A stretch of DNA of 64,000 nt from positions 124,001 through 188,000 of the forward strand of contig NZ_JAFRDR010000008.1 of NCBI RefSeq assembly GCF_017377795.1. Direction: 5' to 3'. A program made the position numbers and the translations under genes. This document shows positions 1 to 19,624 of the stretch, one piece after another. This stretch comes from Williamsia soli (GTDB lineage: Bacteria; Actinomycetota; Actinomycetes; Mycobacteriales; Mycobacteriaceae). The notes under the pieces were generated by a model, which was not told the origin of the DNA, did not search any database, and saw nothing but the letters and a program-made list of their open reading frames with translations. Within the stretch, counting starts at the first letter, position 1; the number at the start of each line of letters is the position of its first letter.

Positions 1-398
1 GCGGTTTGGTGCGCTACAACCCGACCGTGCCGTACGGCGCCGACGACCCGACTCTGCCGGCCTTCATCGACGGCAACCTTCCACCCGACCCTGACACTGC
101 AGTGGCCGTGAAGGTACTCACTGACCGTCGCGACCGCGACGAGTACAACCCCGACATCGACATTCGATTGCGATTCCGCACCGCAGTCAACAGGGTTGGC
201 CCGTCAGTCGGTGATTACGCCGACGCGGTGTTCATGCACCTGCACGTGCCTGATCACCAGTACCGCCCACAAGTTTGGCCCGGTGGCATCCGGGTCATTG
301 ATGTCCGCCGCGTCCTGCGCGGGCAGTCCGCTCAGGACACCAACGGCCGCTCGACGCGCGCCGACGATTATCGCCTCACTCTCAACCCAAGGAGTTGA
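1..398 (+). CDS. Phage tail terminator-like protein (5' partial)
   Basis: The reading frame is open to the window edge, so the gene is probably cut at its start; a TTG at 6 is the first visible start codon. Siphovirus tail terminators cap the tail tube and join it to the head. The ending DDYRLTLNP resembles that of other actinophage tail terminators, and the gene lies directly before the major tail protein, where this family sits. The residue similarity is modest, so the call rests largely on position. A head-tail connector of another kind is the main alternative. Confidence 0.6.
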   Translation, partial: GLVRYNPTVPYGADDPTLPAFIDGNLPPDPDTAVAVKVLTDRRDRDEYNPDIDIRLRFRTAVNRVGPSVGDYADAVFMHLHVPDHQYRPQVWPGGIRVIDVRRVLRGQSAQDTNGRSTRADDYRLTLNPRS

Positions 399-399
399 A

Positions 400-1941: not shown

Positions 1942-2365
1942 CCCGCTCGAGGACCATTACGATCCCGATCTCTATCTGCCGATCGGCGATGTGGTGTACC
2001 AGATCCCGGCGCCGTCGATCACCGAGGCCGACCGCATCCGACCATTCCTGTGGGGCCCGGAGGCTGATGGCTACAAGCCCGACGCCGAGCAGGCTGACGC
2101 CGAGAAGATGCTCGGACCGGCGTACCTCGAGATGACCAAGAACGAGGTGCCCGCGCCCTACGTGAATCACGCCGGCCGCACCGCGCTCATCCACTTCTGT
2201 TCCGGACCGCAAGGCCCGGAGCTCGGCCGTGGCCACTGGGTATTTGCGCACCTCTCCGAGCGCATCGACGTCCAGAAGCTTATGAAGTACATGGCGGCCG
2301 AGCGCGACAAGAAGCGCAACCAGGACGCGGCTCGCGAAGCGATGAAGTCGAAGGCTGATGTCTGA
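1925..2365 (+). CDS. Tail assembly chaperone, short paralogue
   Basis: A 146-residue protein from GTG 1925, overlapping the previous gene by 17 bases in another frame and the tape measure gene by 8. It repeats the previous protein's features: LPIG, a PS motif, an E-(K)MLG segment and VNHAGRTALIHF. In many siphoviruses the second chaperone is a frameshift extension of the first. Here the second open frame has its own start and its own copy of the conserved domain. Going from the first frame to this one would need a +1 or -2 shift, and no obvious slippery site was seen. Independent initiation by coupling is the simpler reading. Confidence 0.6.
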   Translation: MATRYDPLEDHYDPDLYLPIGDVVYQIPAPSITEADRIRPFLWGPEADGYKPDAEQADAEKMLGPAYLEMTKNEVPAPYVNHAGRTALIHFCSGPQGPELGRGHWVFAHLSERIDVQKLMKYMAAERDKKRNQDAAREAMKSKADV

Positions 2366-6461: not shown

Positions 6462-7276
6462 TGGCTGGCCCTGTAGTCATCCTCACTGGCGTCGACGGCG
6501 AGGTCTGGGAGTTCGGCGATCCGTTGTGCCCGGTGCGGCTCAAGTACGTCAAGGGCCTGGGGGGTGCCGACTTCACCATCGAGGACACCGAGGGCGTCGG
6601 GCAGGCAGGCGTGACCTTCGTGGCCACGAACGACAAGCCCAACGTCGTCACTCTCGGCGCGAACCTCGGGCCAGTGCCGAAGTCGCAGGGCATGGATCTG
6701 CTGTCCCGGTGGCGGCAGACGCTGGGTCGCGGGTCGTCGCTCGTCTCAGGCGGCCCGCTGATGAAGCTGGAGATCGTCCAGTCCGAGCGGTACCAGTGGA
6801 TGCGGCTGACCAACAAGCTCGAGTCGCCGTTCGAGCAGATGGCGAACGTCGGTTGGATGTTCGAGGACGTCGACCTGCGCAGCGATGAGACATGGTGGCG
6901 CACAGACCCGATCGTCAAGGAGTTCACCGCGGCCCAGTTCGCGGGTGCAACGATCGACAACCTCGGGACCGAGCCAGTGTGGCCGTTCATCCGCATCGAT
7001 GGGCCGATCTCGTCACCGACGCTCTCGTGGGCCGGTCAGCCTGCGGTGTCGCTGCCGTCGCTGACCGCCGGCCAGTGGCTCGAGATCGAATCAGACCCGG
7101 ACTGGTGGGCCATCACCGACCAGGCGGGTCTCGATCGCTCGTGGATCGGCAATCGCTGGTACGTCAAGGCGCCGAAGAAGACGAATAATATTCCGGTCAC
7201 AATCACCGGGGGCAGCACTTCGGGTGCGACTCGGCTGAAAGTCACCCTGCCGCAACTGTTTGCGACTGCGCTGTGA
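6461..7276 (+). CDS. Distal tail (Dit-like) minor tail protein
   Basis: A 271-residue protein starting at ATG 6461, sharing one base with the tape measure stop codon. The gene directly after the tape measure in Gram-positive siphophages normally encodes the distal tail protein, a hub joining tube and tip. The sequence fits: a short N-terminal beta region, a central Trp/Arg-rich segment (SRWRQTLGRG, WMRLTN) and a C-terminal beta-sandwich-like part ending in TRLKVTLPQLF. No enzyme motif is present. The assignment is mostly from order. Confidence 0.65.
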   Translation: MAGPVVILTGVDGEVWEFGDPLCPVRLKYVKGLGGADFTIEDTEGVGQAGVTFVATNDKPNVVTLGANLGPVPKSQGMDLLSRWRQTLGRGSSLVSGGPLMKLEIVQSERYQWMRLTNKLESPFEQMANVGWMFEDVDLRSDETWWRTDPIVKEFTAAQFAGATIDNLGTEPVWPFIRIDGPISSPTLSWAGQPAVSLPSLTAGQWLEIESDPDWWAITDQAGLDRSWIGNRWYVKAPKKTNNIPVTITGGSTSGATRLKVTLPQLFATAL

Positions 7277-8832
7277 CGATGGGCATGCCGGGATTCGCCC
7301 GGCCCAACACCACCGAAGTCACCCCGTTCCCTATCGAGATAGGCCGGCGGAACAACCCGGTCATCGAGTGGCGCCCGGTCGGGAACTACCAAGAGTCGGC
7401 ATTCGACTGGACCTTCGGCAGCGAGCCGAACACAGGCGCGTTCTCGCTGCATCCCGATCACCCGCTGGTATCGCAGATCACGAACGTCAAACGCCGCTGC
7501 TTCCACGTCCGGACGATGCGCAACGGCAAGCCGTGGGACGGGCGGATCATGCGCCGTCGTCTGTCGGGCGCTCCGGGTCGCGAGAAGATCCTGTACACCT
7601 GCGTCGGCAATAAGTATCTGATGCAGAAGTGGCTGGCCTGGGTGAACCCCGGTCTGCCGCCATGGATCCAGGTGGGTCTCACTGGCAAACAGGACGTGAT
7701 TGTCGGCGCTCCGGACCCCGTGTTCAAGTACTACTTCGCGAAGAACATGACGCGGCTCAACTTCCCGGCGTTCTGCAAGTTGCCGTTGCACTGGCCGGCG
7801 GAGTGGACGATGCCGGATCTGAGCGACATAGACAGCTTCGACGATCTGCTGGACCTGATCGCCGATGTCACTGACCCGATCGCCGCGCTGCAGGCCCGGT
7901 TCCCTCGAGGTGCTGACCTCTTCGAGCCCACCATGAAGCGACTCGAGATGGGCTACTCGGTGAACCTATGGGACGGGCGCGGCACCTCACCGCAGGTGTT
8001 CAACACGTCCAGTCTCGCTGCGATGCAGTCGATTATCGACGCATCATCTGATCACTTCCTCGACCTCTCGCAGTTGATGAAGCCGATCAACAACGGGCTG
8101 TGGTCGGACAGCATGGACCGCGCCGGCATGGTCTTCGATACCCAGGTCCAGCGAGACAACCGCAAGGTGCAGTTCCGCACTGACGCCCCCGGTCAGATCG
8201 ACTCCTACGAGTACGAAGAATCGCACCCGGAGGCGGGCAAGGTGATCGTCGGCGGCAAGTCGCCGGCCATCCTGAACGACGTCATCGAGATCGGCGCGAA
8301 CCTCGCCATCCAGCTGCTGATCAACCTCATCGCCCCGGGTCTCGGCCTGGGCGTGGTGGTGGGCGATCTGTTCGATGACATCTTTTTCGCCTACCAGCAG
8401 TTCTGGGATCAGGACCTGATTGACGACGTCGGTGAGGACGATCTCTGGCCCGAGGACTTCGTCGACAACACCGCGGCGCACTCGCTCGATTCGTACGCCA
8501 CCGGCATGACTGGGCTCAAGGAGCGCGGCGGCGGCGAGAAGCTCGTCATCAACGCCACCTCTGGCGGTGCGGATGGCCGAGGGATGAGCTTCGGCGCGGA
8601 CAACGGGACTGCGCGCCGGTTCGACGTCGGCGACCGGATCCAGTTCTGGGACCGCGGGAACATCGTCGAGCAGTACGTGTCGAAGGTGGCGGTCGCCGAT
8701 CGCAACGACGGCCGGATGGTCGAGCAGATCACCCTCGGCGAGTCCGAGCGCCTGAAGGGTCCGTGGGATCGGTCGATCTCTGGGCTCATCGGACTGGGCG
8801 CGACATCGAGAGCGTTCGCGAACTCGGTATGA
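7273..8832 (+). CDS. Minor tail protein, tail-tip (ReqiPepy6 Gp37-like)
   Basis: A 519-residue protein from GTG 7273, overlapping the previous stop by 4 bases (GTGA). It follows the distal tail gene, where actinophages place the large tip or hub protein. The visible layout is an N-terminal beta region, a central helical segment around IIDASSDHFLDLSQLM, a short hydrophobic stretch (NLAIQLLINLIAPGLGLGVVVGDLF) and a C-terminal beta region with FDVGDRIQFWDRG. This resembles the Gp37-like tail protein family of Rhodococcus phage ReqiPepy6. That family name is from recall and not tested here; the tail-tip role is more secure than the family. Confidence 0.6.
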   Translation: MTMGMPGFARPNTTEVTPFPIEIGRRNNPVIEWRPVGNYQESAFDWTFGSEPNTGAFSLHPDHPLVSQITNVKRRCFHVRTMRNGKPWDGRIMRRRLSGAPGREKILYTCVGNKYLMQKWLAWVNPGLPPWIQVGLTGKQDVIVGAPDPVFKYYFAKNMTRLNFPAFCKLPLHWPAEWTMPDLSDIDSFDDLLDLIADVTDPIAALQARFPRGADLFEPTMKRLEMGYSVNLWDGRGTSPQVFNTSSLAAMQSIIDASSDHFLDLSQLMKPINNGLWSDSMDRAGMVFDTQVQRDNRKVQFRTDAPGQIDSYEYEESHPEAGKVIVGGKSPAILNDVIEIGANLAIQLLINLIAPGLGLGVVVGDLFDDIFFAYQQFWDQDLIDDVGEDDLWPEDFVDNTAAHSLDSYATGMTGLKERGGGEKLVINATSGGADGRGMSFGADNGTARRFDVGDRIQFWDRGNIVEQYVSKVAVADRNDGRMVEQITLGESERLKGPWDRSISGLIGLGATSRAFANSV

Positions 8833-8984
8833 CCGGCTGGATATGCCGCCCCGTGATTGCTTTCGCGGTCTGGATGGGTAAACGGCGAGCCCACTGTGTG
8901 CAGCACGAGGCGCAGATCCGCGCCTACCAATTAGCCGACCTGGCAGACAAAACCCAAGGGAGACAACATGGCATGGACAGGTGA
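8829..8984 (+). CDS. Small phage protein with one hydrophobic segment
   Basis: A 51-residue protein starting at ATG 8829, which overlaps the previous stop codon (ATGA), and ending 17 bases inside the endolysin gene. Residues 1-18 (MTGWICRPVIAFAVWMGK) are hydrophobic and followed by a basic KRR, so it could sit in the membrane with its tail in the cytoplasm. The remainder is a short polar helix. The tight coupling on both sides suggests a real gene. Its position before the endolysin fits a lysis or tail accessory role, but the function is unknown. Confidence 0.5.
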   Translation: MTGWICRPVIAFAVWMGKRRAHCVQHEAQIRAYQLADLADKTQGRQHGMDR

Positions 8985-10017
8985 CCCCGTCTGGCTCGCA
9001 GATGTACTGCGCGCTGAGGGCGTGGCAACGGTCGAGTATCCGGGCTGGCGTGAGCGCGGCCACGGTGACTTCGGCAACGTGTGGGGCGTCGTGGCGCATC
9101 ACACCGGCGCGTCCGGTTCGCCAGGCCCCGCGATGATCGCGAACGGCATCTCTGGTCTGGCCGGTCCGCTCTCGCAGATCCACCTCGCCCGCAACGGCGT
9201 CGCAACGGTCGTCGCTGTCGGTGTCGCCTGGCACGCCGGTCAGGGCGCCTGGCCCGGACTTCCGACGAACAACGCCAACTTCCACACCATCGGTATCGAG
9301 GCCGAGAATAACGGCACCGAGGGCTGGTCGGCGGCGCAGTACTGGGCGTATGTGAAGTGCTGTGCGGCGATCTGTCGCAAGCTCGGCTACGGCGCCGACC
9401 GCGTCATCGGTCACAAAGAATGGGCCGGGGCCGCGCAGGGCAAGTGGGATCCGGGCGGCATCGACATGAACGCCTTCCGCCGCGACATCCAGAACCAGAT
9501 CAACGGTGGCGCGAAGCCCGTTCCTCCACCCCCCAATCAGATCGACGAGATGGCGAAGGTGGCGGCCGGGTGGATCGGCGCGCGCCGCACCAAGGGTGAA
9601 TTGAAGACTCCCGACGGCAAGGGCCGGTATGCCGAGTTCGAACGCGGCTACATCTACTGGCACCCCGACACCGGCGCTCGCCCGGTGCCGCTGAACATCT
9701 TCGAGACCTGGGCAGGGCTCGGCTGGGAAGCAGGCCCGCTCGGCTACCCGACCAAACACCATGCAGTGGTCGACAAAGTCGGCGACATCCAGGCCTTTCA
9801 GCATGGCGTCATCTACCGCCGCTACGGACAGCCCGGCTTCTGGGTCCATGGCGTGATCGGCGACTCCTGGTTCCAGCGCGGCGCAGAGAACAGCCCGCTC
9901 GGTTGGCCCACCTCGAATGAGTACGACTACGACGGCGGCAAGATGCAGGACTTCGAAAACGACTCCCTCGCCTGGAATCCCTCCGGCGCGGTTCGTATTA
10001 CACGAAAGAAGGATTAA
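8968..10017 (+). CDS. Endolysin LysA: amidase plus LGFP repeats
   Basis: A 349-residue wall hydrolase. Residues about 25-180 form an N-acetylmuramoyl-L-alanine amidase domain (Amidase_2/PGRP fold) that cuts between muramic acid and the stem peptide. Zinc-site candidates are the His in VAHHTG, the His in AWHAG and the segment VIGHKEWAG. From about residue 200 there are three LGFP-type repeats (LGYPT and LGWPT cores), which target mycolic-acid-type walls. A strong AGGGAGA site precedes ATG 8968. There is no signal peptide, so export needs a holin or similar route. It heads the lysis cassette, which is set between tail genes. Confidence 0.9.
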   Translation: MAWTGDPVWLADVLRAEGVATVEYPGWRERGHGDFGNVWGVVAHHTGASGSPGPAMIANGISGLAGPLSQIHLARNGVATVVAVGVAWHAGQGAWPGLPTNNANFHTIGIEAENNGTEGWSAAQYWAYVKCCAAICRKLGYGADRVIGHKEWAGAAQGKWDPGGIDMNAFRRDIQNQINGGAKPVPPPPNQIDEMAKVAAGWIGARRTKGELKTPDGKGRYAEFERGYIYWHPDTGARPVPLNIFETWAGLGWEAGPLGYPTKHHAVVDKVGDIQAFQHGVIYRRYGQPGFWVHGVIGDSWFQRGAENSPLGWPTSNEYDYDGGKMQDFENDSLAWNPSGAVRITRKKD

Positions 10018-10019
10018 CC

Positions 10020-10448
10020 ATGACCACTCACACTGCCCCCGCCCGCCTCGTCTTCGGCCGTGAACCTGCCGCCTGGGCGGGCGCGATCATGGCGGCCGTC
10101 GCGCTGCTCGTTGCGTTCGGCTTCAACATCAGCACCGAGACGCAGGGCCTGATCCAGGCCGCTGTCAACGCGGTGCTGTCGCTGATTGTGGTGATCAGCG
10201 TCCGCGAGACGGTTCTGCCGGCCATCCTCGGTGTCGTCCAGACGGGCCTACCGCTGGTCGTCGCGTTCGGCTTCTCGGTCACCGAGGCCCAGCAAGGCGC
10301 AATCCTGGCCGCCGCGTCGCTGTTCCTGACTCTCATCGCCACTCGTCCGCAGGTCACCCCGAAGGTACTCAGCCACACCATCTTCGTTGAAGCGGACAAC
10401 ACGGGCGAGGCGTTCATCCCGCACAGCGGTGAGCACAGGGCCGAGTAG
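10020..10448 (+). CDS. Holin-like four-helix membrane protein
   Basis: A 142-residue protein right after the endolysin. After an N-terminal basic segment come about four hydrophobic segments (residues 18-35, 43-63, 66-85 and 90-108), in two similar halves: LLVAFGFNISTETQGLIQAA and PLVVAFGFSVTEAQQGAILA. This looks like an internal duplication. The C-terminal 35 residues are polar. Holins form the inner-membrane lesion that times lysis, and position beside LysA is the main support. The duplicated two-helix unit resembles actinophage holins. Confidence 0.75.
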   Translation: MTTHTAPARLVFGREPAAWAGAIMAAVALLVAFGFNISTETQGLIQAAVNAVLSLIVVISVRETVLPAILGVVQTGLPLVVAFGFSVTEAQQGAILAAASLFLTLIATRPQVTPKVLSHTIFVEADNTGEAFIPHSGEHRAE

Positions 10449-10837
10449 TGCTCGGTGCGCGGCTCATGGCCGCAGCTACAGGCCTGATGAACGTGACGGT
10501 CGGCGTGCTGTACATCTCCCCCGAGGAGTTGGTGCGCCGACCGCTGCAGCCTGGCCAAGTCTCCGCAGTGGTGTGGATCGAGAACATCGGGCCCGCATGG
10601 TTTGTCGGCTTCATGGTCACCGGCCTGATGCTCCTATTGGCCGCCGCCCGCTCAACAGGGTTCGTCCGCGCCCACATCGCATCGTCAATGATGTTGGCGT
10701 TCTATGCCGGGTGCATCTTGTGCTCGGCCGTACTCACTGAACCTCCGGTCCCTGTAGTCCACGGGACATTCGCCGGATTCTTCGCGGTCCTCCATATTGC
10801 GATCGCCCGCGGCGACGCGGAAAGGGGCTGTCGGTGA
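10448..10837 (+). CDS. Second small membrane protein of the lysis cassette
   Basis: A 129-residue protein from GTG 10448, sharing one base with the preceding stop. It has four predicted membrane segments: residues 5-22, 42-66, 74-95 and 103-120. It is not an evident duplicate of the preceding holin-like protein. Mycobacteriophages and relatives often carry two or more membrane proteins next to LysA, one acting as holin and another as a partner or antiholin. Which role applies here cannot be read from sequence. Confidence 0.6.
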   Translation: MLGARLMAAATGLMNVTVGVLYISPEELVRRPLQPGQVSAVVWIENIGPAWFVGFMVTGLMLLLAAARSTGFVRAHIASSMMLAFYAGCILCSAVLTEPPVPVVHGTFAGFFAVLHIAIARGDAERGCR

Positions 10838-11223
10838 GCCCAGAACTCATCGCGTCGTTCGGCGGTCTCCTGGCCGCGATCGGCGCCCTCATCACTGGTG
10901 TCCTCGCGACCCGGTCCAAGGTCAAGTTGGACGACATCGCGAAGCTGCACGCCAAGATCGACGACCTCGAGGCAGACCTCGCCGAGGAGAAGAAGGCTCG
11001 CGATCGCGACGCCGACCAGTACCGGGCCAAGCACTCGCAGACCATCGCTGACTACGAAGCTGAGTTGGCCGAGCTGAAAGAGCGGCTGCGGCAACGGGAT
11101 CAGACGATCGGCCACCTGGACCGCGTCATCCTGGCGCTGCGGACCTACGTCGCGCGGGCTCGACGCAAGCTGATCGACCGCGAGATCGAGCTGCCCGACG
11201 AAGTTGAGGGGATGAACGACTGA
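10834..11223 (+). CDS. Membrane-anchored coiled-coil lysis accessory protein
   Basis: A 129-residue protein from GTG 10834, overlapping both neighbours by a few bases. Residues 3-26 form one hydrophobic anchor (LIASFGGLLAAIGALITGVLA). Residues 30-100 are a long charged helix with heptad spacing (KIDDLEADLAEEKK, LAELKERLRQRD). The shape, one N-terminal anchor plus a coiled coil, is that of i-spanins and of some phage lysis accessory proteins. It is the third membrane protein between LysA and LysB. The spanin analogy is structural inference only, since these hosts lack a lipopolysaccharide outer membrane. Confidence 0.55.
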   Translation: MSPELIASFGGLLAAIGALITGVLATRSKVKLDDIAKLHAKIDDLEADLAEEKKARDRDADQYRAKHSQTIADYEAELAELKERLRQRDQTIGHLDRVILALRTYVARARRKLIDREIELPDEVEGMND

Positions 11224-11861
11224 TGATGAATGTGCGAGCTCGCGGAGCCGGTGAACAGACCGGCCCTGCGCAGATGCTGGTCGGCGTGACCCGGGGCATG
11301 GACGCGGTCGACCTGGACTATCCCGCGCAGATCCGTCCGATTGGCACACTCACGCTGATCGAGTCGGTCCTGCGTGGGCGTGCAGCTCTGCGCGCAATCG
11401 ACGCCCTCGGCAAGCCCTGGACGCTCAGCGGCTTCTCTCTCGGTGCATACCTGGCCGGCGAGTATGTCGTGCTCGACAAGCCGAAGAACCTCAAGGGTGT
11501 TGTCCTGCTGGCCGATCCACTGCGCCATCGCAATCAGATCGCGCATGTCGGCGTCGCCCGGAATCGATTCGGCGTCGGCGGCGAGCGGTTCATCTCGGGT
11601 GTGCCGGTGCAGAGCTTCGCGATACCTGACGATCCGATCACCTCGTGCCCGGCTGACAACGGGCTGCGGCTGATCTCGAATGGTGTGACGGGCCGCCAAC
11701 AGCCGTATCCAGCCGCGGCGTTCAACCTAATCTACACACTCGACTGGGCGAAGAAGTACCTGATCGAGGGTCGGCATACTGCGTACGGCGTGGAGAAGAT
11801 GCCGGGCGATCAGCGTACGTACGTCCAGGCGGCGCGCGATGCGCTGATGGGAATGCAGTAA
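11223..11861 (+). CDS. Endolysin LysB, mycolyl-arabinogalactan esterase
   Basis: A 212-residue alpha/beta hydrolase. LysB enzymes release mycolic acids from arabinogalactan to break the outer mycomembrane after LysA has acted. The nucleophile elbow is GFSLGA, the likely acid is an Asp in AIPDDPIT, and the likely catalytic His is in EGRHTAYG, giving a full Ser-Asp-His triad in the usual order. The gene begins at ATG 11223 overlapping the preceding stop; a second ATG at 11226 could also serve. Its presence shows that the phage infects a mycolic-acid-bearing host. Confidence 0.88.
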   Translation: MMNVRARGAGEQTGPAQMLVGVTRGMDAVDLDYPAQIRPIGTLTLIESVLRGRAALRAIDALGKPWTLSGFSLGAYLAGEYVVLDKPKNLKGVVLLADPLRHRNQIAHVGVARNRFGVGGERFISGVPVQSFAIPDDPITSCPADNGLRLISNGVTGRQQPYPAAAFNLIYTLDWAKKYLIEGRHTAYGVEKMPGDQRTYVQAARDALMGMQ

Positions 11862-12823
11862 TGCCGGTCGAGATTCCAGGCACGCGTCGATCGGGTGGTG
11901 GAAAGCCCAAGGGCGATCAAAGCCTGCTCGATCTCCTGGGCCTGAACTGGAACTTTCCAAGCCTCGACGAGATCCTCGAACTCATTCTCGCGGTGGTCAC
12001 TGGCGCCTTCACTGGCGGTGGTGTTGGTGGGGCCATCCAGGACTTCTTCGACATCCTCAAGGGGCGCGTCACGGACGTTGAAGCTGAGGTTGTCGCAGTT
12101 GCCGGTGATGTCGGCACCCTCGAAACCCGCGTCACCAACCTCGAATCAGGTGGGGTGCTGACGTACTTCCCCGGCAATGGCACATTCGTCAACCCAGGCT
12201 TCGGCACAGTCACATTCACGCTGTTCAGCGGCGGGCAAGCTGGGTCAACCGCAGATGGCATCTCTGGATCATCAGGCATCGGCCCCCTGATCCGGTCGTT
12301 CAAATGTGTTGACTATGCGGGTGATTTCGTCGTGGCGGTCGGCGCTGGCGGTAGCGCATCAAACCTTCAGGCTGGCGGCGTCACGACAGTGTCGGTAAAC
12401 GGCGTTGTCATCATGTCGGCTACCGCAACGGGCTCGATGACCGCGTACGGGATCACTTCCGTTCAGGGTTTCGCCACCCCCGGCGGGTATGGCCGTGTCG
12501 TGAACGGCACCAACTCTGAGACCCGCGCAGCGTTCTCGGCGAATCCCGGATATCTAGGCACCCCCGGTGGCGCGGCGGGTACATCGGGCAGCCGGGACGG
12601 CAAGGACGGTACTGACGCCCCGGATCTCGGGAACCTCATCATTGGCGGCACTGGTGGTGGAGGCGGCTACAGCGCTTACGGGTCGGGCACTTCAGGTCGG
12701 GGTGGCGACGGAGGTTCACCTTCTGGTGGTGGTGGTGGCCCTGGTAATGCACAGCTCGGCGCCTCGCAAGGCAGACGTGGATATGGCGCCAATGGTGCCG
12801 CACTAGCGAATTGGGAGCCCTGA
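11861..12823 (+). CDS. Glycine-rich minor tail / receptor-binding protein
   Basis: A 320-residue protein from ATG 11861. Residues 1-65 hold a basic, Gly-rich start and a hydrophobic helical stretch (ILELILAVVTGAFTGGGVGG). Residues 65-100 form a short coiled coil (VEAEVVAVAGDVGTLETRV). Next comes a beta domain, and the last 120 residues are Gly/Ser-rich with runs of Gly. Such coiled-coil plus glycine-rich endings are typical of tail-tip adhesins in actinophages. It follows LysB, so host-recognition genes resume after the lysis cassette. Confidence 0.6.
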   Translation: MPVEIPGTRRSGGGKPKGDQSLLDLLGLNWNFPSLDEILELILAVVTGAFTGGGVGGAIQDFFDILKGRVTDVEAEVVAVAGDVGTLETRVTNLESGGVLTYFPGNGTFVNPGFGTVTFTLFSGGQAGSTADGISGSSGIGPLIRSFKCVDYAGDFVVAVGAGGSASNLQAGGVTTVSVNGVVIMSATATGSMTAYGITSVQGFATPGGYGRVVNGTNSETRAAFSANPGYLGTPGGAAGTSGSRDGKDGTDAPDLGNLIIGGTGGGGGYSAYGSGTSGRGGDGGSPSGGGGGPGNAQLGASQGRRGYGANGAALANWEP

Positions 12824-13128
12824 TGACACACACAGCAACACTGACCCGCGAGAACGTCCCCGGAAAAGGTGTCGGGTCCACGATCTCCAACTGCTACCAA
12901 CTGTCCGAGCCGCTCGATGGCGTGGAGTTCCTGACGGTCACGTGCATCGACATGCCGAAGTGGAACTGTCAGATGACTTCCATCCTCCCCGCGATGGACG
13001 GCGACGGCGCGCCCCTGTCGGCACCGGACGGAACGTTGGCGATGTCGATCACCAAGCCACTCATGGACCCCGCCGAGGCCTTGGCCGAACTCGGCTACAC
13101 CGTCGTCACTGATCCCGAGGAGCCCTGA
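12823..13128 (+). CDS. Small protein between two tail fibre genes
   Basis: A 101-residue protein. ATG 12823 overlaps the previous stop (TGATGA), and its own stop overlaps the ATG of the spike gene, so it is translationally coupled on both sides. It has three Cys residues (SNCYQ, TCID, KWNCQ), few basic residues, and an acidic end (VTDPEEP). No known motif was recognised. Position between two host-recognition proteins suggests a chaperone or a small structural component of the fibre; this is inference from order. Confidence 0.6.
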   Translation: MTHTATLTRENVPGKGVGSTISNCYQLSEPLDGVEFLTVTCIDMPKWNCQMTSILPAMDGDGAPLSAPDGTLAMSITKPLMDPAEALAELGYTVVTDPEEP

Positions 13129-15320
13129 TGTCGATTCTGAACTACGGCTGGACCGACAGCGACGGCGGCGACCCGCCCCGCGTCCGGGTCCGCCTCACTC
13201 CCCCGAGGCCGCGCCCGTCGGTCCTCAACCCTGGCACCACGGTGTCGACGAACACCATCCCGTCCGAGTCAGCGACCGGCGCGGGGTCGTTCAACCCGGT
13301 CGAGCCGGGGCCGTATGAAGTCATCGTGACGTTCGGTCGCGCAGGGTCTGATTACTTCTCGGGCGCCGGCATCATCGGGCCCTCGTTCATCAACGTCCCC
13401 GAGGGCACATCGGACCTCGGCGTCCTGCTGATGGCCGCTGGCGCACCCCTGCCACCGCCGGACTGGAAAGCGGTCGCCGACGTAACTTATGCCCCGCTCG
13501 AAGGGCTCGGTGACATCGTCGCCAATGCGGTCGCCGACGACCCGACGATCGCCAGCAAGGCCCCGCTTCCCACTGCTGCTCGCAACCCGCTTACCGGGTA
13601 CTGGCACGCCGATGGGTACGGCGCGGTGGGAAACGGATCGACTGACGACAAGAACGCGATCAACGCCGCGATGGTTGCGGCTTCAGCGGCCGGCGGCGGT
13701 GTGGTCTACATCAAGCCCACCAACTCCGCGTACATGATCTCCTCGTCGCTGACGCCCCGATCCAAAGTCACCCTGTTCTCTCATGGCGCGACTCTGAAGA
13801 TGTCGTCGAACGGGACCGCGATCTACGGATCAACAGTCGGGCTCACGGACTTCGCGATCGACGGTCTGATCTTCGAGGGCGGCGTCACCGAGAACGCCAC
13901 AGCACCAAAGCGCGCCCGCACGAAGGTCACAGGCATGGAGACAGCGGTATCGCTGTACGGCAACCTCGACCCCAGCGCGAGCGGCTCAGCGGCTCTGACC
14001 GGGTTCTCGATGCGCAACTGCATCGTCCGCAACTGCTCCGGTCTGCCGATCTTCCTGCGCGGTGTCGGCGGCGCAGTCCAGGTCCACGACAACCAGTTCA
14101 TCAACAACATGGACGTCGGATTCGTCTACTGCCCATCGGTGCAATTCAACAACAACTACGTCTACGGCTCGGCCGACAACGGTGTCTCGATGTCGCGGGT
14201 CAGCGACAAGCTGACGTGCGTCGGCAACGTCTTCGAGAACTGTGCCTACAACGGCATCTGGGCGGCGGGCTTCGGCACCGAGACCGGCCCCGCCCACTTC
14301 GCGATCGCTGGCAACGTCGTCAAGGATGTCGGCCACGCGGGCATCTTCATGGACCTGGCCCCGAAATACGGTGCGATCACAGGCAACGTCCTCGACGGTG
14401 CGTACCGACGCGGCCCCTCGGACGAGGCCACGGACTCGATCTGCGTGGGCATCTTCATCGGCGGCTTCCCCGACACCGACCGTGCAACGCCGACGAACTT
14501 CGCAACTGACATCGTGGTGATGGGCAACCAGATCCGCCGGTTCGCGCAGGCCGGTATCTTCTCGCCAGGCGGCATCAAGCGGGTCATGATCGCCAACAAC
14601 CTGATCGATGGCATCGGCACGCAATACCTCGCCGACGGCGCAACCGCCGTGTCGAGCACCGACGCGGCGCGCAACATCGGCATCCTGATCAGCTTCCCCG
14701 CGACCGTCGCGGACGTCCTGATCCAGGGCAACAAGATCACCGACGCCCGCAGCCCGTCGTATTGCAACTACGCGATCCGCCCGAACGGTTCCTCGTTGGT
14801 CAACGCCAGCCTCAATGAGGCGTCGGGCCTGCGCAATACTGCCGACCTGATCGAGACCGGACCAGCGCGCAACGTCAACTGGGTGGCGCTTCAACAGAGC
14901 CAGACTCGTCACCTGGCGGGCGCGCTGGCGGGCACCTCAGCTTCGACGGGAACGGTCGCAGGGTTCGACATCAATGGCGCTGCTACCTCGCTGCGCCACG
15001 ATCGCGTGAAGACGGCGTCTCTTGACCGGTTCTCATGGGGTGTCAACGGTAACGCCGAGGCGGGGAGCAACGCGGGGTCGGACTTCGATCTCCGCGCCTA
15101 CACCGACGCCGGGGCGTATCTCGGCACGGTAATCACGGCGAAGCGCTCGAACCTCACCCTCAAAGCGGAGAAGGGCTACGTGCAGGCAGTAAAGGCTGGT
15201 GTCCCGTCAGACGCCGACTTCGCGACCACGCCGAGCGACGGGACGACCGTCCTCGACACCACGAACCACCGGCTCTATGTGCGCTCCGGTGCGAGCTGGC
15301 GGTACACAGCGCTGACCTGA
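13128..15320 (+). CDS. Tailspike with pectate-lyase-like beta-helix
   Basis: A 730-residue protein, the last gene of the late operon. Residues 1-150 form an N-terminal beta domain that probably attaches it to the tail. From about residue 163 the sequence YGAVGNGSTDDKNAINAAM begins a right-handed beta-helix of the pectate-lyase superfamily, with many repeated short strands rich in Asn, Gly and Val to about residue 580. The C-terminal 150 residues look like a trimerisation or fibre tip. Such spikes bind and often cut surface polysaccharide. Catalytic residues cannot be assigned by eye. Its last 46 bases overlap the end of an opposing glycan-polymerase gene. Confidence 0.78.
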   Translation: MSILNYGWTDSDGGDPPRVRVRLTPPRPRPSVLNPGTTVSTNTIPSESATGAGSFNPVEPGPYEVIVTFGRAGSDYFSGAGIIGPSFINVPEGTSDLGVLLMAAGAPLPPPDWKAVADVTYAPLEGLGDIVANAVADDPTIASKAPLPTAARNPLTGYWHADGYGAVGNGSTDDKNAINAAMVAASAAGGGVVYIKPTNSAYMISSSLTPRSKVTLFSHGATLKMSSNGTAIYGSTVGLTDFAIDGLIFEGGVTENATAPKRARTKVTGMETAVSLYGNLDPSASGSAALTGFSMRNCIVRNCSGLPIFLRGVGGAVQVHDNQFINNMDVGFVYCPSVQFNNNYVYGSADNGVSMSRVSDKLTCVGNVFENCAYNGIWAAGFGTETGPAHFAIAGNVVKDVGHAGIFMDLAPKYGAITGNVLDGAYRRGPSDEATDSICVGIFIGGFPDTDRATPTNFATDIVVMGNQIRRFAQAGIFSPGGIKRVMIANNLIDGIGTQYLADGATAVSSTDAARNIGILISFPATVADVLIQGNKITDARSPSYCNYAIRPNGSSLVNASLNEASGLRNTADLIETGPARNVNWVALQQSQTRHLAGALAGTSASTGTVAGFDINGAATSLRHDRVKTASLDRFSWGVNGNAEAGSNAGSDFDLRAYTDAGAYLGTVITAKRSNLTLKAEKGYVQAVKAGVPSDADFATTPSDGTTVLDTTNHRLYVRSGASWRYTALT

Positions 15321-16669
15321 TCGTCGGCGTCGTCTTCCTCCGGTTCCGGCTCGGGTCGGTGACACGACAGCCCGATCAGCAACATGAGGATGGCCCACGG
15401 CGCGGGGAACTCATTGACATCGAAGACGAAGTACATCGCGAACAGCGAGAGCACCGCGGGCCGGTACTCGGGCTGAGCAAACCAAACCGACCCAATGATG
15501 ATCGCGACGAAGATGCCCAGGCCGATCAGTCCACTCGTCGCGATCAGCGACACGAACTGGTTGTCGATCGCGAGGAACCCGTCGAGCTGCAGGAAGTTGC
15601 GATCGAACAGCCACTCCCGGGAGTACCAGCCGCTTCCGGTCATGGCTCGCGTGAACGACTGATCCAGGAGACGCTCTGCTGCGTCGAGGGCTCCCTCGCG
15701 GTGGCTGACCGAGTCGCTCTCGCTGAACCGTTGGTACACGCCGGAGGTGGAGAACGAGAACAGTAACGCGAACCCGAGTGTCAGACCGGTGAGCACCAGG
15801 CCCCGGACCCACGACAGAGTGCGGGGACCGTAGGCGAAGAACAGGACGGCGATCATGATGATGATCGTGCTGCGAGATCCCGTCGCGAACCCTCCGGCGA
15901 GGATCACGGCGGTGATCCAGTAGCGGTGCATCGGGTTGTTGAAGTGGTGACGTGCGGTCAAAGCGAGGCCGACAGCTAGGAACATCGACATCAGCAGCGG
16001 GTGCCCGAACGTGCCCTGGGCCCGGAGCAGCCCGGGGATGATCTCGCTTCCGAGGCGGTCGGACGGCCACTTGAACGACTCCGGGACCGGCGACGCCCAC
16101 AGAACTGCCGGGGTGAATAGAACCTCGTACGCCGCGTAAATGCTCTCGACGACAGCCAGGCCGATAATGACGCGAACGATTTGCTGTCGTTCATCGGGAT
16201 TGCTGTAGAGGCCGACGATCAAGAATGTCACGCCGATGATCACGTGAAGAATGAATTGGTACATCGCGCCGGTGATGCCCATGGATCGGGTCGAAAGAAA
16301 AGTCACCACGAAATATCCGGCGACCAGCCCCATCATCGACATGTGCACGGTACGAGGCAGTGGTCGGCGAGCCAGGATGACGGCGGAGACCAGGACCAGA
16401 ACAAGCATCTCTGCCAGGCGAAACAGGTTCGGCACGAGATGGATGGGCAGCAGGACCACCATGACGATGACCGAGGACCCGAGGATGCCTACGACGCGGT
16501 CACTGCGCAGGAAAGCGCCGATAGTTACGACGGCGACCGTTAGCGCGGCTCCGTACGTCAGCGACAGGTGATAAACAACTCCATACCCAACAGCCGAAGC
16601 CAGGACGACACACCCCAAGAGCGTGAAAACCCGCTCTTTCATCGAATACATAAAGGGAGTATCGCGCAC
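15275..16669 (-). CDS. Wzy/WaaL-like O-antigen polymerase or ligase
   Basis: A 464-residue polytopic membrane protein with about 11-12 hydrophobic segments. It shows the Wzy_C/O-antigen-ligase pattern: a helix beginning ATGSRSTIIIMIAV, a large external loop (about residues 305-365, with TGSGWYSREW) and then NQFVSLIATSGLIGLG. Family members polymerise or transfer lipid-linked glycans outside the membrane. The GTG start is tentative; in-frame ATGs 6 and 9 codons later are alternatives. It converges on the tailspike gene with a 46-base overlap, and its C-terminus (EEDDADDQ onward) is charged. Inside a prophage it may change the lysogen's surface glycan. A host origin for this gene is a less likely alternative. 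Confidence 0.7.
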   Translation of the reverse strand: MRDTPFMYSMKERVFTLLGCVVLASAVGYGVVYHLSLTYGAALTVAVVTIGAFLRSDRVVGILGSSVIVMVVLLPIHLVPNLFRLAEMLVLVLVSAVILARRPLPRTVHMSMMGLVAGYFVVTFLSTRSMGITGAMYQFILHVIIGVTFLIVGLYSNPDERQQIVRVIIGLAVVESIYAAYEVLFTPAVLWASPVPESFKWPSDRLGSEIIPGLLRAQGTFGHPLLMSMFLAVGLALTARHHFNNPMHRYWITAVILAGGFATGSRSTIIIMIAVLFFAYGPRTLSWVRGLVLTGLTLGFALLFSFSTSGVYQRFSESDSVSHREGALDAAERLLDQSFTRAMTGSGWYSREWLFDRNFLQLDGFLAIDNQFVSLIATSGLIGLGIFVAIIIGSVWFAQPEYRPAVLSLFAMYFVFDVNEFPAPWAILMLLIGLSCHRPEPEPEEDDADDQVSAVYRQLAPERT

Positions 16670-16694
16670 CGCACGGGATTAAGCGCAACGTGCG

Positions 16695-16859
16695 ATGATT
16701 CTCGGCATGGAGAAGTCACACCTGGGCCGTTCGATGAAGGCCCCGCGGCCGGCACGCCGCCGCCGCGATCTCGTCGCGCTGCTCGCCCTGGGATCGGTGT
16801 TCGTGTGGATGCTGCTCAGCTCCATCGGCGACGAAGTGCCGGCCGTCTTCTACTTCTGA
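16695..16859 (+). CDS. Mini membrane protein divergent from the Wzy-like gene
   Basis: A 54-residue open frame from ATG 16695 (ATG 16707 would give 50). It has a strongly basic segment (RPARRRRD, about residues 19-25), then one hydrophobic helix (LVALLALGSVFVWMLLSSI) and a short acidic-aromatic end (GDEVPAVFYF). This is the layout of a single-pass protein with the basic side in the cytoplasm. No clear ribosome site is seen. It begins only about 25 bases from the start of the opposing Wzy-like gene, so the two may share a control region. Function is unknown. Confidence 0.45.
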   Translation: MILGMEKSHLGRSMKAPRPARRRRDLVALLALGSVFVWMLLSSIGDEVPAVFYF

Positions 16860-16866
16860 CTTAGCC

Positions 16867-17055
16867 CTATGGGGTCTTGAGTTCCTGGTATCGAGTAACG
16901 CCCTGATCGAAGTAGCGGCGTTCCAGGCCGCCCAACTGGTCGATCTCTTCCTGGATACCCTTCCGGGCTTCCTCGGTCTCGGCCGCCAACTGAAGGTCTT
17001 CGAGCTCGGTGATCGCGGCCGGGATTTCGGCCAGGTCGTAGGTGAAGTTGCGCAT
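16867..17055 (-). CDS. Small acidic helical phage protein
   Basis: A 62-residue protein. ATG 17055 has a near-perfect AAAGGAG site six bases upstream, good evidence that it is translated. The sequence is highly helical and acidic (ELEDLQLAAETEEARKGIQEEIDQLG), with an aromatic N-terminus (MRNFTYDL). No known motif was recognised. It lies in the accessory right end of the prophage and its stop is 7 bases from the end of the convergent mini membrane protein gene. Confidence 0.65.
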   Translation of the reverse strand: MRNFTYDLAEIPAAITELEDLQLAAETEEARKGIQEEIDQLGGLERRYFDQGVTRYQELKTP

Positions 17056-17195
17056 GTCGACTCCTTTGTCGGCCTCGATTGTGGTGCCTTCAAGGGTGAC
17101 AGGTGGGACGCCCTTCTCGGGCGATACGAACCCTGCGGGGCCTGAATAATCGGTTAACTGTTCAACCTGGCGACACGGGGCATAACGTCCGAACT
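17056..17195. other. Short non-coding spacer in the accessory end
   Basis: No convincing gene is present. The stretch is less GC-rich near 17143-17165, where an imperfect inverted repeat (GGTTAACTGTTCAACC) lies. Read on the minus strand, this region could contain the promoter for the 62-residue protein gene, but no clear -35/-10 pair was found. Confidence 0.3.
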
Positions 17196-17222
17196 GTCCC
17201 CAGCCCGTTCGAGGCTGGGGAC
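17196..17222 (-). terminator. Perfect 10-bp hairpin after a small minus-strand gene
   Basis: The arms GTCCCCAGCC and GGCTGGGGAC pair perfectly around a 7-base loop. The hairpin begins 12 bases past the stop of the minus-strand gene ending at 17234, where a terminator would lie. There is no T-tract after it on either strand, so it may be a weak or factor-assisted terminator or an RNA-stabilising stem. Confidence 0.5.
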
Positions 17223-17233
17223 AAATCCGATCG

Positions 17234-17455
17234 TCAGTAAACCGTGCCAGTACGTCGCCGTGCGCGAGGTGCGCCCGTGGTCACCTCTGCCCAATAGCTC
17301 GGTGAGTGAAAGCGCTCAACGCCATCCAAGTCGGTCAGCTTGAGAACGCCGCTGTGCTCGTAGATTGTCGCGCTCGCATCTTCGTACGTGCTCTGACTCC
17401 CGTCAGTGAACGTGATCGTGATTTCGCCCTTGATGGTCCGGACTGTGTCAGCCAA
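17234..17455 (-). CDS. Small phage protein, beta-rich
   Basis: A 73-residue protein from TTG 17455, with AAAGGGG about 9 bases upstream supporting this start. The middle part looks like short strands (IKGEITITFTDGS, GVLKLTDLDGVERF), and the C-terminus is basic (ARRRTG). No family was recognised. A perfect hairpin follows its stop. Confidence 0.55.
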   Translation of the reverse strand: MADTVRTIKGEITITFTDGSQSTYEDASATIYEHSGVLKLTDLDGVERFHSPSYWAEVTTGAPRARRRTGTVY

Positions 17456-17533
17456 GGCGGCATCGCCCCTTTCTGGTGGTTAGCCGGGCAGATGCCCGGG
17501 CCATAAGACAGAACCACACAGTCCGTGGAACCC

Positions 17534-17656
17534 ATGTGGAAATCGGCACGTCTCATCTCCATGGACGACAACCTCCCCGAGATCGCACAGTGGGCGATCG
17601 CTGACGCGCTGTCAGAGATCCGCTGGGAGCTAGATCAGTCCGACCCCGGCACGTAG
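17534..17656 (+). CDS. Possible 40-residue acidic micro-protein
   Basis: An open frame of 40 residues. Its composition looks protein-like: two short amphipathic helices with LPEIAQWAIADALSEIRWEL and an acidic end. Weak points are the lack of a clear ribosome site and a 22-base convergent overlap with the zinc-ribbon gene. It is the only plus-strand candidate feeding the perfect terminator at 17901. It could be chance, so confidence is low. Confidence 0.3.
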   Translation: MWKSARLISMDDNLPEIAQWAIADALSEIRWELDQSDPGT

Positions 17657-17844
17657 TGCAGCCCGTCGAGGTGGTTCTTCGGCGCCGAGGTCTCAGGGTC
17701 CTTGTAGATCGTGGCGTCACACTGGCGGCACGTCCAGGTGCGGCACGGCGGCTTGCGAGTGTTGCTCCATCCCACCAGCACCCGGCGCGGACCGAGCCGG
17801 TGACCGTTCGGACAACGCCGAGGTGGATTGCTGTCGGAGTACAC
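17635..17844 (-). CDS. Small zinc-ribbon-like phage protein
   Basis: A 69-residue protein. GTG 17844 is preferred over upstream starts because GAGAGGG lies about 5 bases before it. It contains CPNGH and, about 28 residues on, C..WTCRQC, a two-knuckle arrangement expected to bind zinc. The rest is basic and polar. Small zinc ribbons of this kind are frequent in actinophage genomes, mostly without known function; nucleic-acid or protein binding is likely. Confidence 0.55.
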   Translation of the reverse strand: MYSDSNPPRRCPNGHRLGPRRVLVGWSNTRKPPCRTWTCRQCDATIYKDPETSAPKNHLDGLHYVPGSD

Positions 17845-17900
17845 AGAGCCCTCTCTGAGACTCCAACCTCCGCTCACCGAGCATACGACCCATGAACGAC

Positions 17901-17943
17901 AGAACGCCCGAGCCATAAGTTAGATGGCTCGGGCGTTCTTTTG
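17901..17943 (+). terminator. Perfect 16-bp intrinsic terminator
   Basis: The arms AGAACGCCCGAGCCAT and ATGGCTCGGGCGTTCT are perfectly complementary around a 7-base loop and are followed on the plus strand by TTTT (ending about 17942). This is the clearest intrinsic terminator in the phage part. On the minus strand there is no T-run. It would stop rightward transcription entering from the late operon or from the micro-protein candidate at 17534, insulating the divergent promoters at 18.2 kb. Confidence 0.75.
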
Positions 17944-18010
17944 CGTTGGATGCAACCCCTTCCCAGAAGCGAACCCAACGCGACGACGACTGTAGATCAG
18001 CGGTCGGACA

Positions 18011-18205
18011 TCACCGACGCCCATCCCTGATCTGGTAGGTCCGCGGCTTGGACAGTCCTGACGCGGTGGCGATCTGGGGTCCGGTGTGGCCGGCCTCGAA
18101 CGCTGCCTTGACGGCCACCTCGAGCTGCTCGTCGAGCTGTGCGAGTTGCGCGGCCACCTCTTTGCGCTGATCTCTGATGGCTGCGACCTGGTCGATTGGC
18201 TCCAT
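18011..18205 (-). CDS. Small helix-turn-helix protein
   Basis: A 64-residue protein from ATG 18205. Residues 5-40 are a charged helix that could form a dimerising coiled coil (IRDQRKEVAAQLAQLDEQL). Residues 41-62 resemble a helix-turn-helix (HTGPQIATASGLSKPRTYQI), implying DNA binding. No ribosome site is seen, but a TATATT -10-like hexamer ends 6 bases before the ATG, consistent with a leaderless message. It diverges from the 60-residue gene at 18305 over a small palindrome, the layout of an autoregulated switch. A lysogeny or accessory repressor role is inference. Confidence 0.6.
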   Translation of the reverse strand: MEPIDQVAAIRDQRKEVAAQLAQLDEQLEVAVKAAFEAGHTGPQIATASGLSKPRTYQIRDGRR

Positions 18206-18211
18206 GAGAAA

Positions 18212-18268
18212 AATATAGCAGATTTACCCTGCTAGGGCTTGCGCCCACCAGGGGAAGCGCGCTATACT
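18212..18268. promoter_or_regulatory. Divergent promoters with a small palindrome
   Basis: On the plus strand TTGCGC (18239-18244) and TATACT (18263-18268) are separated by 18 bases and precede the gene at 18305. On the minus strand a TATATT hexamer (18217-18212) sits 6 bases before the HTH gene's ATG. Between them lies CCCT-GCT-AGGG (18227-18237), a perfect short palindrome placed to affect both promoters. The promoter hexamers are seen directly; the operator role is inferred from position. Confidence 0.5.
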
Positions 18269-18304
18269 TTAATCACAAGGAAGAACGAAAACGAAAGGGA
18301 GACA

Positions 18305-18487
18305 ATGACACTCACCATCAACTTCAAGGGCGAGGGAACCCACACCGAGAAGGTGCGGAACCTGGACCACGGACTCGACCGGGCCGAGATCCTGGCGGAA
18401 GAGATCGGGATGGTCAGCCGGTACAACCGGGACGGCACGGTCACCCTCCACGGTAAGGGCCTCGAGTTCGGCGGCTACGTGGCCTGA
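18305..18487 (+). CDS. 60-residue phage protein under its own promoter
   Basis: ATG 18305 follows an AAAGGGAGACA ribosome site and the promoter described at 18239-18268, so expression during lysogeny is plausible. The protein begins with a short beta stretch (MTLTINFKGEG), has a central helix (LDRAEILAEEIGM), and ends GLEFGGYVA. Mixed charge, no membrane segment and no recognised family. A GC-rich hairpin follows the stop. Confidence 0.65.
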   Translation: MTLTINFKGEGTHTEKVRNLDHGLDRAEILAEEIGMVSRYNRDGTVTLHGKGLEFGGYVA

Positions 18488-18494
18488 GGGCCTC

Positions 18495-18520
18495 GGCCCG
18501 GCCCTTCGGGGGGTCGGGCC
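18495..18520 (+). terminator. GC-rich hairpin after the 60-residue gene
   Basis: GGCCCGGCCC pairs with GGGTCGGGCC (one G-T wobble) around a 6-base loop, starting 8 bases past the stop codon at 18487. No T-tract follows. The position suggests a terminator of the L-shaped type common in actinobacteria, which can lack a U-run. Confidence 0.5.
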
Positions 18521-18554
18521 TGCTGGCATGTGAATCACGTGTTGTCAGATGCGG

Positions 18555-19235
18555 CTACCCTCCCTGCCGCACCCGCGCCACACAGTTCTGTAGCGCGGAC
18601 CCGTACTCATCGCCCGCGCTGATGTTCACGTCAAGCAGGTCCCGGCCGTCGGGCAGCACAGTGAACTCATTGGCCGAGCTGGACAGTGCGTACGGAACGT
18701 CATCCTTGATGACCCAGGTGTCCTGACTCGACTCCCGCTCGTCGCCCCGCATGATGTCGGCTCCGACGTAGACCAGACCACCCGGTGCCGTCAGAGACTG
18801 CAGGTTCGTCAGGCTCAGAGAGGAATCGATCAGACTGAACTCGATCATGCTGACGTACGCCTCCGCTGGGATCTCGCACGGCAACTGGGACATCGTCTGA
18901 GTCGACCGCGCGGCGGGTGGCGGTGGCGCAAATGTCGTCGGCGCCGGCAGTTGCGCCCTCGTGGTGGTGGTCGACGCCGCGGCCGGTTCATCGTCCTCGC
19001 CCGGCTCGAAGCCGGTGATCGCCGCGAACGAGATATAGAGGACCAGCGCCCCGAAGATTGCCGCGACCGCAATCAGCCACTTCTTGTTGCCTCCCCTGCC
19101 GCCGCTCGGGCCCGGGGGCGGTGCAAACTGAGCGGGGCGCGTGGCGCTCGTCCACTGCTGACCGTCCCACCACCGCAACTGATCTGGGACGCCTTCGGGG
19201 TCCGGGTGCCATCCTGGTTGAGAGCTGTTTGACAT
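18555..19235 (-). CDS. DUF2510 single-pass membrane protein
   Basis: A 226-residue protein. Residues 5-35 are a DUF2510 motif (PGWHPDPEG, LRWWDGQQWTSATRP), which faces the cytoplasm in actinobacterial proteins. A membrane helix (LIAVAAIFGALVLYISFAA) spans about 52-72. A Thr/Pro-rich linker and an exported beta-rich domain with two Cys (LPCEIP, LQNCVAR) follow. A TAGCAT -10-like hexamer 6 bases before the ATG suggests a leaderless message. Such proteins occur in both host genomes and actinophages. It is kept with the prophage because the next gene belongs to a conserved host block, but it could be host. Confidence 0.7.
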   Translation of the reverse strand: MSNSSQPGWHPDPEGVPDQLRWWDGQQWTSATRPAQFAPPPGPSGGRGGNKKWLIAVAAIFGALVLYISFAAITGFEPGEDDEPAAASTTTTRAQLPAPTTFAPPPPAARSTQTMSQLPCEIPAEAYVSMIEFSLIDSSLSLTNLQSLTAPGGLVYVGADIMRGDERESSQDTWVIKDDVPYALSSSANEFTVLPDGRDLLDVNISAGDEYGSALQNCVARVRQGG

Positions 19236-19624
19236 CAGCAGATGCTATGGGATGAATACCCGATTCGACATGTACCGTTTGCGACACACAGTTGAGGCGG
19301 GAGATCCGGTTCAGGTCAACCCGGTACGGACCTCGAACCTGGACCAGACCTTCGAGGGCTTCTACCGCCCGAACTGAGCTGGAGAGAAATTCGCGCCACG
19401 TACCTGCATGCGCGCGGGTTGCACATGGCGCGCACGGACGCCGGCGGCGCGAATTGTTGCTGAAGTGCCTCGGCCCCAGCGGACGGCACATCGCGCCACG
19501 ACGGGGTTGACCTCGCCAGAAAGTCGCCGAGTAGAGACCAGATCGACAAATCTCGGCAAACCTTGCGCACTTCGGGCGAGGCGAGGTGGCCGACGCTCGG
19601 GGTCGGTGACTAGGCTCTGTCCCC
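19236..19624. other. Prophage-host junction region (389 bases)
   Basis: No convincing gene. A 41-codon open frame on the plus strand (19252-19377, ending LDQTFEGFYRPN) lacks a ribosome site and may be a gene remnant. No tRNA 3' end was recognised. The right attachment site probably lies here, but it cannot be shown without the left end. The last bases carry TAGGCT (19611-19616), a -10-like hexamer 8 bases before the ATG at 19625, so the next gene may have a leaderless message. Confidence 0.4.

Follow-up and report, generated by a model that had tools for sequence, protein, structure and literature searches.

Prophages that alter the surface polysaccharide of their host are known from Gram-negative bacteria, and the question raised by the locus described here is whether a temperate phage of a mycolic-acid actinobacterium does the same. 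The locus lies in a 64,000-nucleotide stretch of the Williamsia soli genome (contig NZ_JAFRDR010000008.1, positions 124,001 to 188,000), referred to below as the window. It corresponds to C24:124001-188000 of the 6.07-Mb lysogen genome (G000), and C24 positions were converted to window positions by subtracting 124000. Directly after the tailspike gene of a prophage in this window stands a gene for a 464-aa membrane protein resembling Wzy_C-type polysaccharide polymerases, with a divergent gene for a 54-aa mini protein beside it. The initial annotation had proposed that the two form a seroconversion module like that of Pseudomonas phage D3, with arabinogalactan or another surface glycan as the substrate. 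The best explanation for the data is that the Wzy-type enzyme probably brings about lysogenic conversion of the host exopolysaccharide. The observations demonstrated below are the phage location of the gene, its relationship to Wzy_C, the presence of a host polysaccharide locus, and a different spike with a different polymerase in one related prophage.

The two open reading frames (ORFs) first described were confirmed, with 12 membrane spans predicted for the larger protein and a single span with a basic N terminus for the smaller. The 464-aa ORF begins with GTG (Met7 or Met10 being possible alternative starts, giving 458 or 455 aa) and overlaps the tailspike ORF tail-to-tail by 46 bases. Its hydropathy profile places a 68-residue loop at residues 307-374. 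The protein matched Pfam Wzy_C (PF04932) with an E value of 5.5e-6, and four full-length relatives (L063, L064, L065, and L066) were aligned, all of them actinobacterial and chromosomal. Overall identity was 19-24%, and no phage context was seen around these relatives, in contrast to the prophage gene. Shared blocks were found at R216-P224, G264-S267, G345-G347, and D369-G383, with L066 the least alike. R324, within the loop, was invariant in all five aligned sequences, as was R266 outside it. Comparison of the family with the chromosomal Wzy_C proteins of the genus by hhalign gave an E value of 2.4e-5 (probability, 75%), and the best sensible NCBIfam match was the polysaccharide protein VpsF, both for the 464-aa protein (E 0.002) and for L063 (E 1.7e-10).

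Relatives were sparse. At E <= 0.001, matches came from 4 of 401 genomes of the family and 6 of 394 of the class, both counts including the lysogen. Three weaker matches (G223, G575, and G672) were recorded, of which G672 proved on inspection to be RodA/FtsW-like. A single plasmid match came from Curtobacterium (27% identity over 45%), and the PHROGs match covered only 16 residues (E 0.005). Nothing was matched among 50,697 phage records, by peptide pattern in IMG/VR or GTDB contigs, or, with the family profile, among Protein Data Bank (PDB) sequences at E <= 1. On sequence grounds, the 464-aa protein was classed as a divergent, polytopic enzyme of the Wzy_C type.

An enzyme of the Wzy_C type could also transfer a host glycan to a new carrier rather than polymerize it, as a ligase or another WaaL- or O-oligosaccharyltransferase-like glycan transferase would. 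Such a reading is supported by the name of PF04932 itself, O-antigen ligase, by a weak match of L066 to an O-linking oligosaccharyltransferase model (E 4e-4), and by weak matches of the chromosomal Wzy_C of the genus to TuaE (E 1.4e-4) and to an O-antigen ligase model (E 0.0017). It is opposed by the His of the HX10G motif, which is Asp369 here and Asp in three of the four relatives, by the VpsF match, and by the surroundings of the relatives. Both L063 and L064 sit in loci with Wzz-kinase genes, and the L064 locus also has a PF01943 flippase; the neighbor of L065 is an acyltransferase, and that of L066 is a polytopic protein without a Pfam match. The ligase reading was therefore judged unlikely, and a polymerase was preferred.

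The phage origin of the gene was deduced from the ends of the insertion. The empty-site comparison covered four of the eight genus relatives (G002, G003, G006, and G007), and in all of them the insertion was absent and the flanks were contiguous. For G002, G006, and G007, the sequence to the left of C24:102188 joins directly to that to the right of window positions 19283-19291, while for G003 the right-hand match begins at window position 19582, with 128 bases intervening. The junction core common to both ends is 5 bp, GAGGC. Its genes include those for an integrase of the serine type (phrog_95, E 1.5e-86), a terminase with relatives in Gordonia phages, tail proteins, endolysins, and a holin. 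With integrase, attachment sites, empty sites, and structural and lysis genes all present, the insertion is a tailed-phage prophage. Since the polymerase-like gene lies inside this mapped insertion, absent from all four relatives compared at both flanks, it is phage-borne, as first proposed. It stands past the tail genes among small, mostly minus-strand genes, and its distance of 2.6 kb from the right end rules out a chromosomal gene caught at the prophage edge. A Wzy-like gene at the same site in prophage-free relatives, which would have spoken for a chromosomal origin, was not seen in these four, nor was a relative of the 464-aa protein found at E <= 0.001 in any of the eight genus relatives.

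Whether the host could supply a substrate was examined in the rest of the genome. The sole PF04932 match of the lysogen (E <= 0.01) is the prophage gene, while seven of the eight genus relatives have matches over the cut-off, six of them (G002-G007) exceeding 80 bits; relative to the chromosomal Wzy_C protein of G007, identity is 94% for that of G006 and 92% for that of G002. At the site of the G007 polysaccharide locus, the lysogen carries a different block of ~18.7 kb between common flanks (C19 710-730 kb), exchanged as a unit relative to G007. Matches to the inner part of this block in the eight genus relatives were short, none exceeding about 680 bases. The locus encodes a priming transferase (EPS_sugtrans) above the TIGR03025 cut-off, the gene for which extends into the common flank, together with a Wzz-kinase, glycosyltransferases, and candidates for the flippase (400 aa) and the polymerase (456 aa, polytopic). 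Because the host has its own Wzx/Wzy-like locus, the lysogen probably holds a pathway supplying substrate to the prophage polymerase, and we infer that the C19 exopolysaccharide is the target. A proposed homology between the 464-aa and 456-aa proteins was rejected: 1 of 200 plain shuffles scored as high in the direct comparison, but plain shuffling destroys the membrane pattern, and in the profile test 87 of 200 block-shuffled controls scored as high. Two neighboring and apparently secreted beta-helix proteins resembling pectate lyases were also noted in the C19 locus (719421-721106 and 721295-722905), their Pfam families being those of the phage tailspike.

These findings also bear on the proposal that the gene pair remodels arabinogalactan or another wall-core glycan. 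The phrog_102 endolysin, which we take to be a LysB, would fit a mycolic-acid host, whose wall is expected to be of the mycolyl-arabinogalactan type. Arabinan synthesis depends on Emb/Aft-type enzymes, and Wzy_C proteins are not known to carry it out. Two relatives of the phage enzyme lie in Wzz loci, and the host possesses a polysaccharide locus of that kind. The proposal was accordingly not upheld; arabinogalactan is an unlikely target, and a role of the pair on the wall core is very improbable.

A further comparison was made with a related prophage, L205 (IMGVR_UViG_2568526728_000001), which was retrieved through a tail protein 92% identical to its counterpart here. Its DNA matches that of the present prophage in blocks (67-82% identity) through the tail region, and the match stops inside the tailspike gene, at window position 13376. 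Over its first 144 residues, the tailspike shares 55% identity with its L205 counterpart. Past this anchor, L205 has a different 547-aa receptor-binding ORF (Polysacc_deac_1, 23.6 bits; cut-off, 23.1), followed in the same slot by a different protein of the Wzy_C type (471 aa; E 5e-7; 30.1 bits, below the cut-off). Similarity between the two polymerases is only local (28% over 81 residues; E 4e-4 in a single comparison), while against a family profile built without it the L205 protein scored 20.5 bits, a value reached by none of 200 block-shuffled controls. The L205 protein may start later than its ORF because a 63-aa ORF overlaps it. A profile scan of the fetched IMG/VR loci matched only the L205 contig (three overlapping loci), a result that holds by construction because the profile included the L205 protein. 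Little can be said from the 80 capsid-like IMG/VR loci, since their flanks are 10 kb, and in the present prophage the distance from the capsid-like gene downstream to the slot is about 18 kb. The closest "phage" match of the L205 polymerase, MT835675.1 (L211), was not counted as phage, as the contig resembles a bacterial polysaccharide locus (GC content, 0.71; flippase-like ORF). It is labeled Bacteriophage sp. in its record. Two small zinc-ribbon-like ORFs, weakly alike (29%; E 0.009), flank the L205 polymerase gene at 18161-18352 (plus strand) and 19562-19741 (minus strand).

Since both the receptor-binding gene and the polymerase differ in L205, the spike and the polymerase may be exchanged together, a suggestion resting on two prophages. 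The same observation argues against the polymerase gene being passing cargo from a chromosomal polysaccharide locus, of no benefit to the phage. A cargo origin is consistent with the lack of a close relative in the searches made and with the GC content of both wzy genes, which is below that of the tail genes (0.612 versus 0.647 here; 0.615 versus 0.648 in L205), although this lower GC content counts for the conversion model as well. Yet the reading frame is open and full-length, and chance acquisition hardly accounts for another, dissimilar Wzy_C gene at this place in the related prophage, so this origin was considered quite improbable.

According to the conversion model, the 464-aa gene would be a lysogenic-conversion gene (moron) of a temperate actinophage, presumably expressed in the lysogen. 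Its product would join lipid-linked repeat units from the host's own Wzx/Wzy-like pathway, and the linkage or chain made would differ from that of the host. The changed coat would then no longer suit the tailspike of the phage itself or of phages sharing it. At the right end of the prophage, the tailspike body and the polymerase would together form an exchangeable cassette for recognizing and then rewriting the receptor. A wider form of this proposal is put forward tentatively, its likelihood being a little short of even: in temperate phages of mycolic-acid actinobacteria, the receptor-recognizing end of the tailspike would be swapped jointly with a capsule polymerase that matches it, as one cassette, and the host locus here is likewise swapped as a block. 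If true, each phage would bring both a tool to find a given coat and an enzyme to rewrite that coat after lysogeny. Wzy-type conversion in mycolic-acid bacteria, if real, would give direct access to the receptors of phages and to the variation of capsules in this group, and linked exchange of spike and polymerase could be tested through prophage comparison.

Several results weigh against conversion by a prophage polymerase. The PF04932 score of 26.7 bits is below the gathering cut-off of 31.7, a cut-off also missed by two of the four full-length relatives. The HX10G motif reads Asp369-X10-Gly380, its first position being Asp in L063, L064, and L065 and His in L066 and the chromosomal Wzy_C of G007. 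The AlphaFold models were poor (mean pLDDT, 46.8 and 39.2) and unusable for fold comparison, and no sigma-70-like promoter was found (0 found, 0.7 expected). On the host side, the flippase and polymerase of the C19 locus are candidates, neither with a family match; as no Wzx exceeded the PF01943 cut-off anywhere in the lysogen genome, both assignments rest on position and membrane pattern. The polymerase gene is on the plus strand in L205 and on the minus strand here, and L205 is the one related prophage seen at this slot. No wzy is annotated near the tailspike relatives in phages Trina and Grayson (two of two checked), and no Wzy_C-type ORF was found near those in the fetched regions of G002 and G008. 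Cutting or binding of the host polysaccharide by the tailspike is likewise putative. The identity of the tailspike itself, as given in the initial annotation, was borne out by matches to phrog_29706 (E 1.5e-77) and Pfam Beta_helix (40.4 bits; cut-off, 25.9). Its relatives among phage records were six Rhodococcus/Arthrobacter phage records (30-31% identity over 62-67% of the length), and the proteins of solved structure closest to it in sequence (E 7e-5 to 0.005) were mannuronan C5 epimerases and a cell-wall surface anchor protein.

The mini protein was examined separately. It comprises 50 aa if translated from Met5, its span covers residues 26-44, and its gene diverges from the polymerase gene across a gap of 25 bp. 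The coding score of the ORF was 0.32 nats/codon, compared with -0.22 for its antisense ORF, and was reached by none of 54 out-of-frame ORFs of 45-70 aa lying within larger genes called in this prophage; the ORF is more than chance and looks real. No match was found in the 50,697 phage records at E <= 10. Within the family genomes, matches at E <= 1 were frequent (149 of 201, with the lysogen included), but the strongest from any other genome had an E value of 0.006, and the list as a whole resembled background. Three family-level matches (E 0.009-0.013) had suggested a truncated relative of what we presume to be the DUF3180 family; in this comparison, in which minus-strand matches were not re-oriented, they were alike in an R-rich and hydrophobic stretch, and as Pfam gave no confirmation they were treated as chance.

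An Iap-like function had been suggested for the mini protein in the initial annotation. Shuffling tests detected no sequence similarity to D3 Iap, the host Wzz, or the host candidate polymerase (249, 364, and 163 of 400 shuffles, respectively, scored as high), nor to the 464-aa protein. Beside the L205 polymerase gene there is no mini-ORF counterpart; the only ORF with a hydrophobic stretch there is an 86-aa antisense ORF over the polymerase start. A conserved pairing of Wzy-like and mini-protein genes was thus not borne out in this single related prophage, in which another Wzy_C gene does occupy the slot by a different receptor-binding gene. It is likely that the mini protein is unrelated to the polymerase and is an orphan phage membrane protein (for superinfection exclusion, as a lysis accessory, or without function), although its divergent position so close to wzy and its strong coding statistics point the other way, and an inhibitor could work by helix packing without sequence similarity. 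The putative roles as inhibitor and as polymerase helper are both unsupported.

The comparison with known systems was extended to D3 and to prophages of Acinetobacter baumannii. D3 resembles the present phage in being temperate, in having wzy on the strand opposite to the tail genes and close to a tail fibre-like gene, and in having a tiny peptide gene nearby; its record (NC_002484) places iap, an acetylase gene, and wzy-beta between the tail fibre-like gene and the endolysin gene, with an HNH gene intervening. Wzy-beta is an enzyme of the Wzy_C loop type (PMC4815439), as the protein here is predicted to be. A wzy gene on an integrated temperate phage close to a tail fibre or spike gene is thus found in both. 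No similarity was detectable between Wzy-beta and the 464-aa protein (82 of 200 shuffles scored as high; with the family profile, 140 of 200 controls). The D3 unit includes an O-acetylase, whereas none was found among the ORFs scanned here: no acyltransferase family was matched in five scanned ORFs between wzy and the DUF2510 gene (18555-19235) or in that gene, two small plus-strand ORFs being left out. The host envelopes are of different kinds. Iap is said in a review to mimic the second membrane span of Wzz (PMC12004945), and such mimicry was not seen in the mini protein at the sequence level.

For A. baumannii, a report (PMC13228068) describes prophages of 41.8 and 36.8 kb carrying a depolymerase gene with wzy1Ph or wzy2Ph; the 36.8-kb prophage has int at one end and dpo with wzy near the other. 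The prophage wzy changed the capsule linkage, the host Wzy was apparently suppressed, and the authors speculate that conversion protects from close relatives. The phage-borne spike or depolymerase with wzy in a prophage of similar layout is common to both cases. In Acinetobacter the capsule structure is known; the present case has an actinobacterial envelope and a serine integrase. As D3 and the Acinetobacter prophages show, the conversion principle is already known. The earlier claim that no such module was known holds for mycolic-acid bacteria, for which no report of Wzy-type prophage conversion was found in the open-access literature, surveyed in limited depth, but capsule-changing prophages with tailspike and Wzy have been published for Acinetobacter. 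As far as that survey extends, what is new is the host group, together with the exchange of the receptor-binding gene and the polymerase as a pair, for which the evidence comes from two prophages.

Table 1. Features of the prophage region in the window
Feature	Window position	Strand	Basis
Wzy_C-type polysaccharide polymerase-like membrane protein, 464 aa	15275..16669	-	PF04932 (E 5.5e-6), relatives, 12 spans
Tailspike: N-terminal anchor (about residues 1-144, common to L205) and beta-helix pectate-lyase-like body	13128..15320	+	Pfam, PHROGs, L205 comparison
Single-span basic mini protein, 54 aa, no relative found	16695..16859	+	Coding score, hydropathy
41.1-kb prophage, right part	1..19298 (whole: C24 102189-143298)	+	Contiguous flanks in relatives, GAGGC junction, phage genes
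attR core GAGGC	19294..19298	.	Inside displaced 3' end of host NlpC/P60-like gene
Endolysin, phrog_102	11223..11861	+	PHROGs match
62-aa ORF, no family	16867..17055	-	Pfam and PHROGs scans
Small HTH protein, phrog_686	18011..18205	-	PHROGs match
DUF2510 membrane protein, 226 aa, phrog_16337 (category moron)	18555..19235	-	Relative of MichelleMyBell gp32

Gene calls were made with a home-made heuristic based on codon score or GC content at third codon positions (GC3). The 226-aa protein near attR has its relative, gp32, between the lysis genes and the integrase of MichelleMyBell, a phage presumably of Cluster N. No Wzy-like product is annotated in that region of MichelleMyBell, which has a tyrosine integrase as opposed to the serine integrase here. 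The insertion point of the prophage is an NlpC/P60-like cell-wall hydrolase gene, the last 25 residues of which are displaced. The lysogen gene, which reaches the left junction (C24 102188), has a long read-through tail in place of these residues, and residues resembling what we take to be the Cys-His-Glu triad of RipA-type enzymes precede the junction. Beyond attR, at window positions about 19380-19455, lies a repeat of ~70 bp that occurs many times over in the genomes of the genus and frequently matches both strands.

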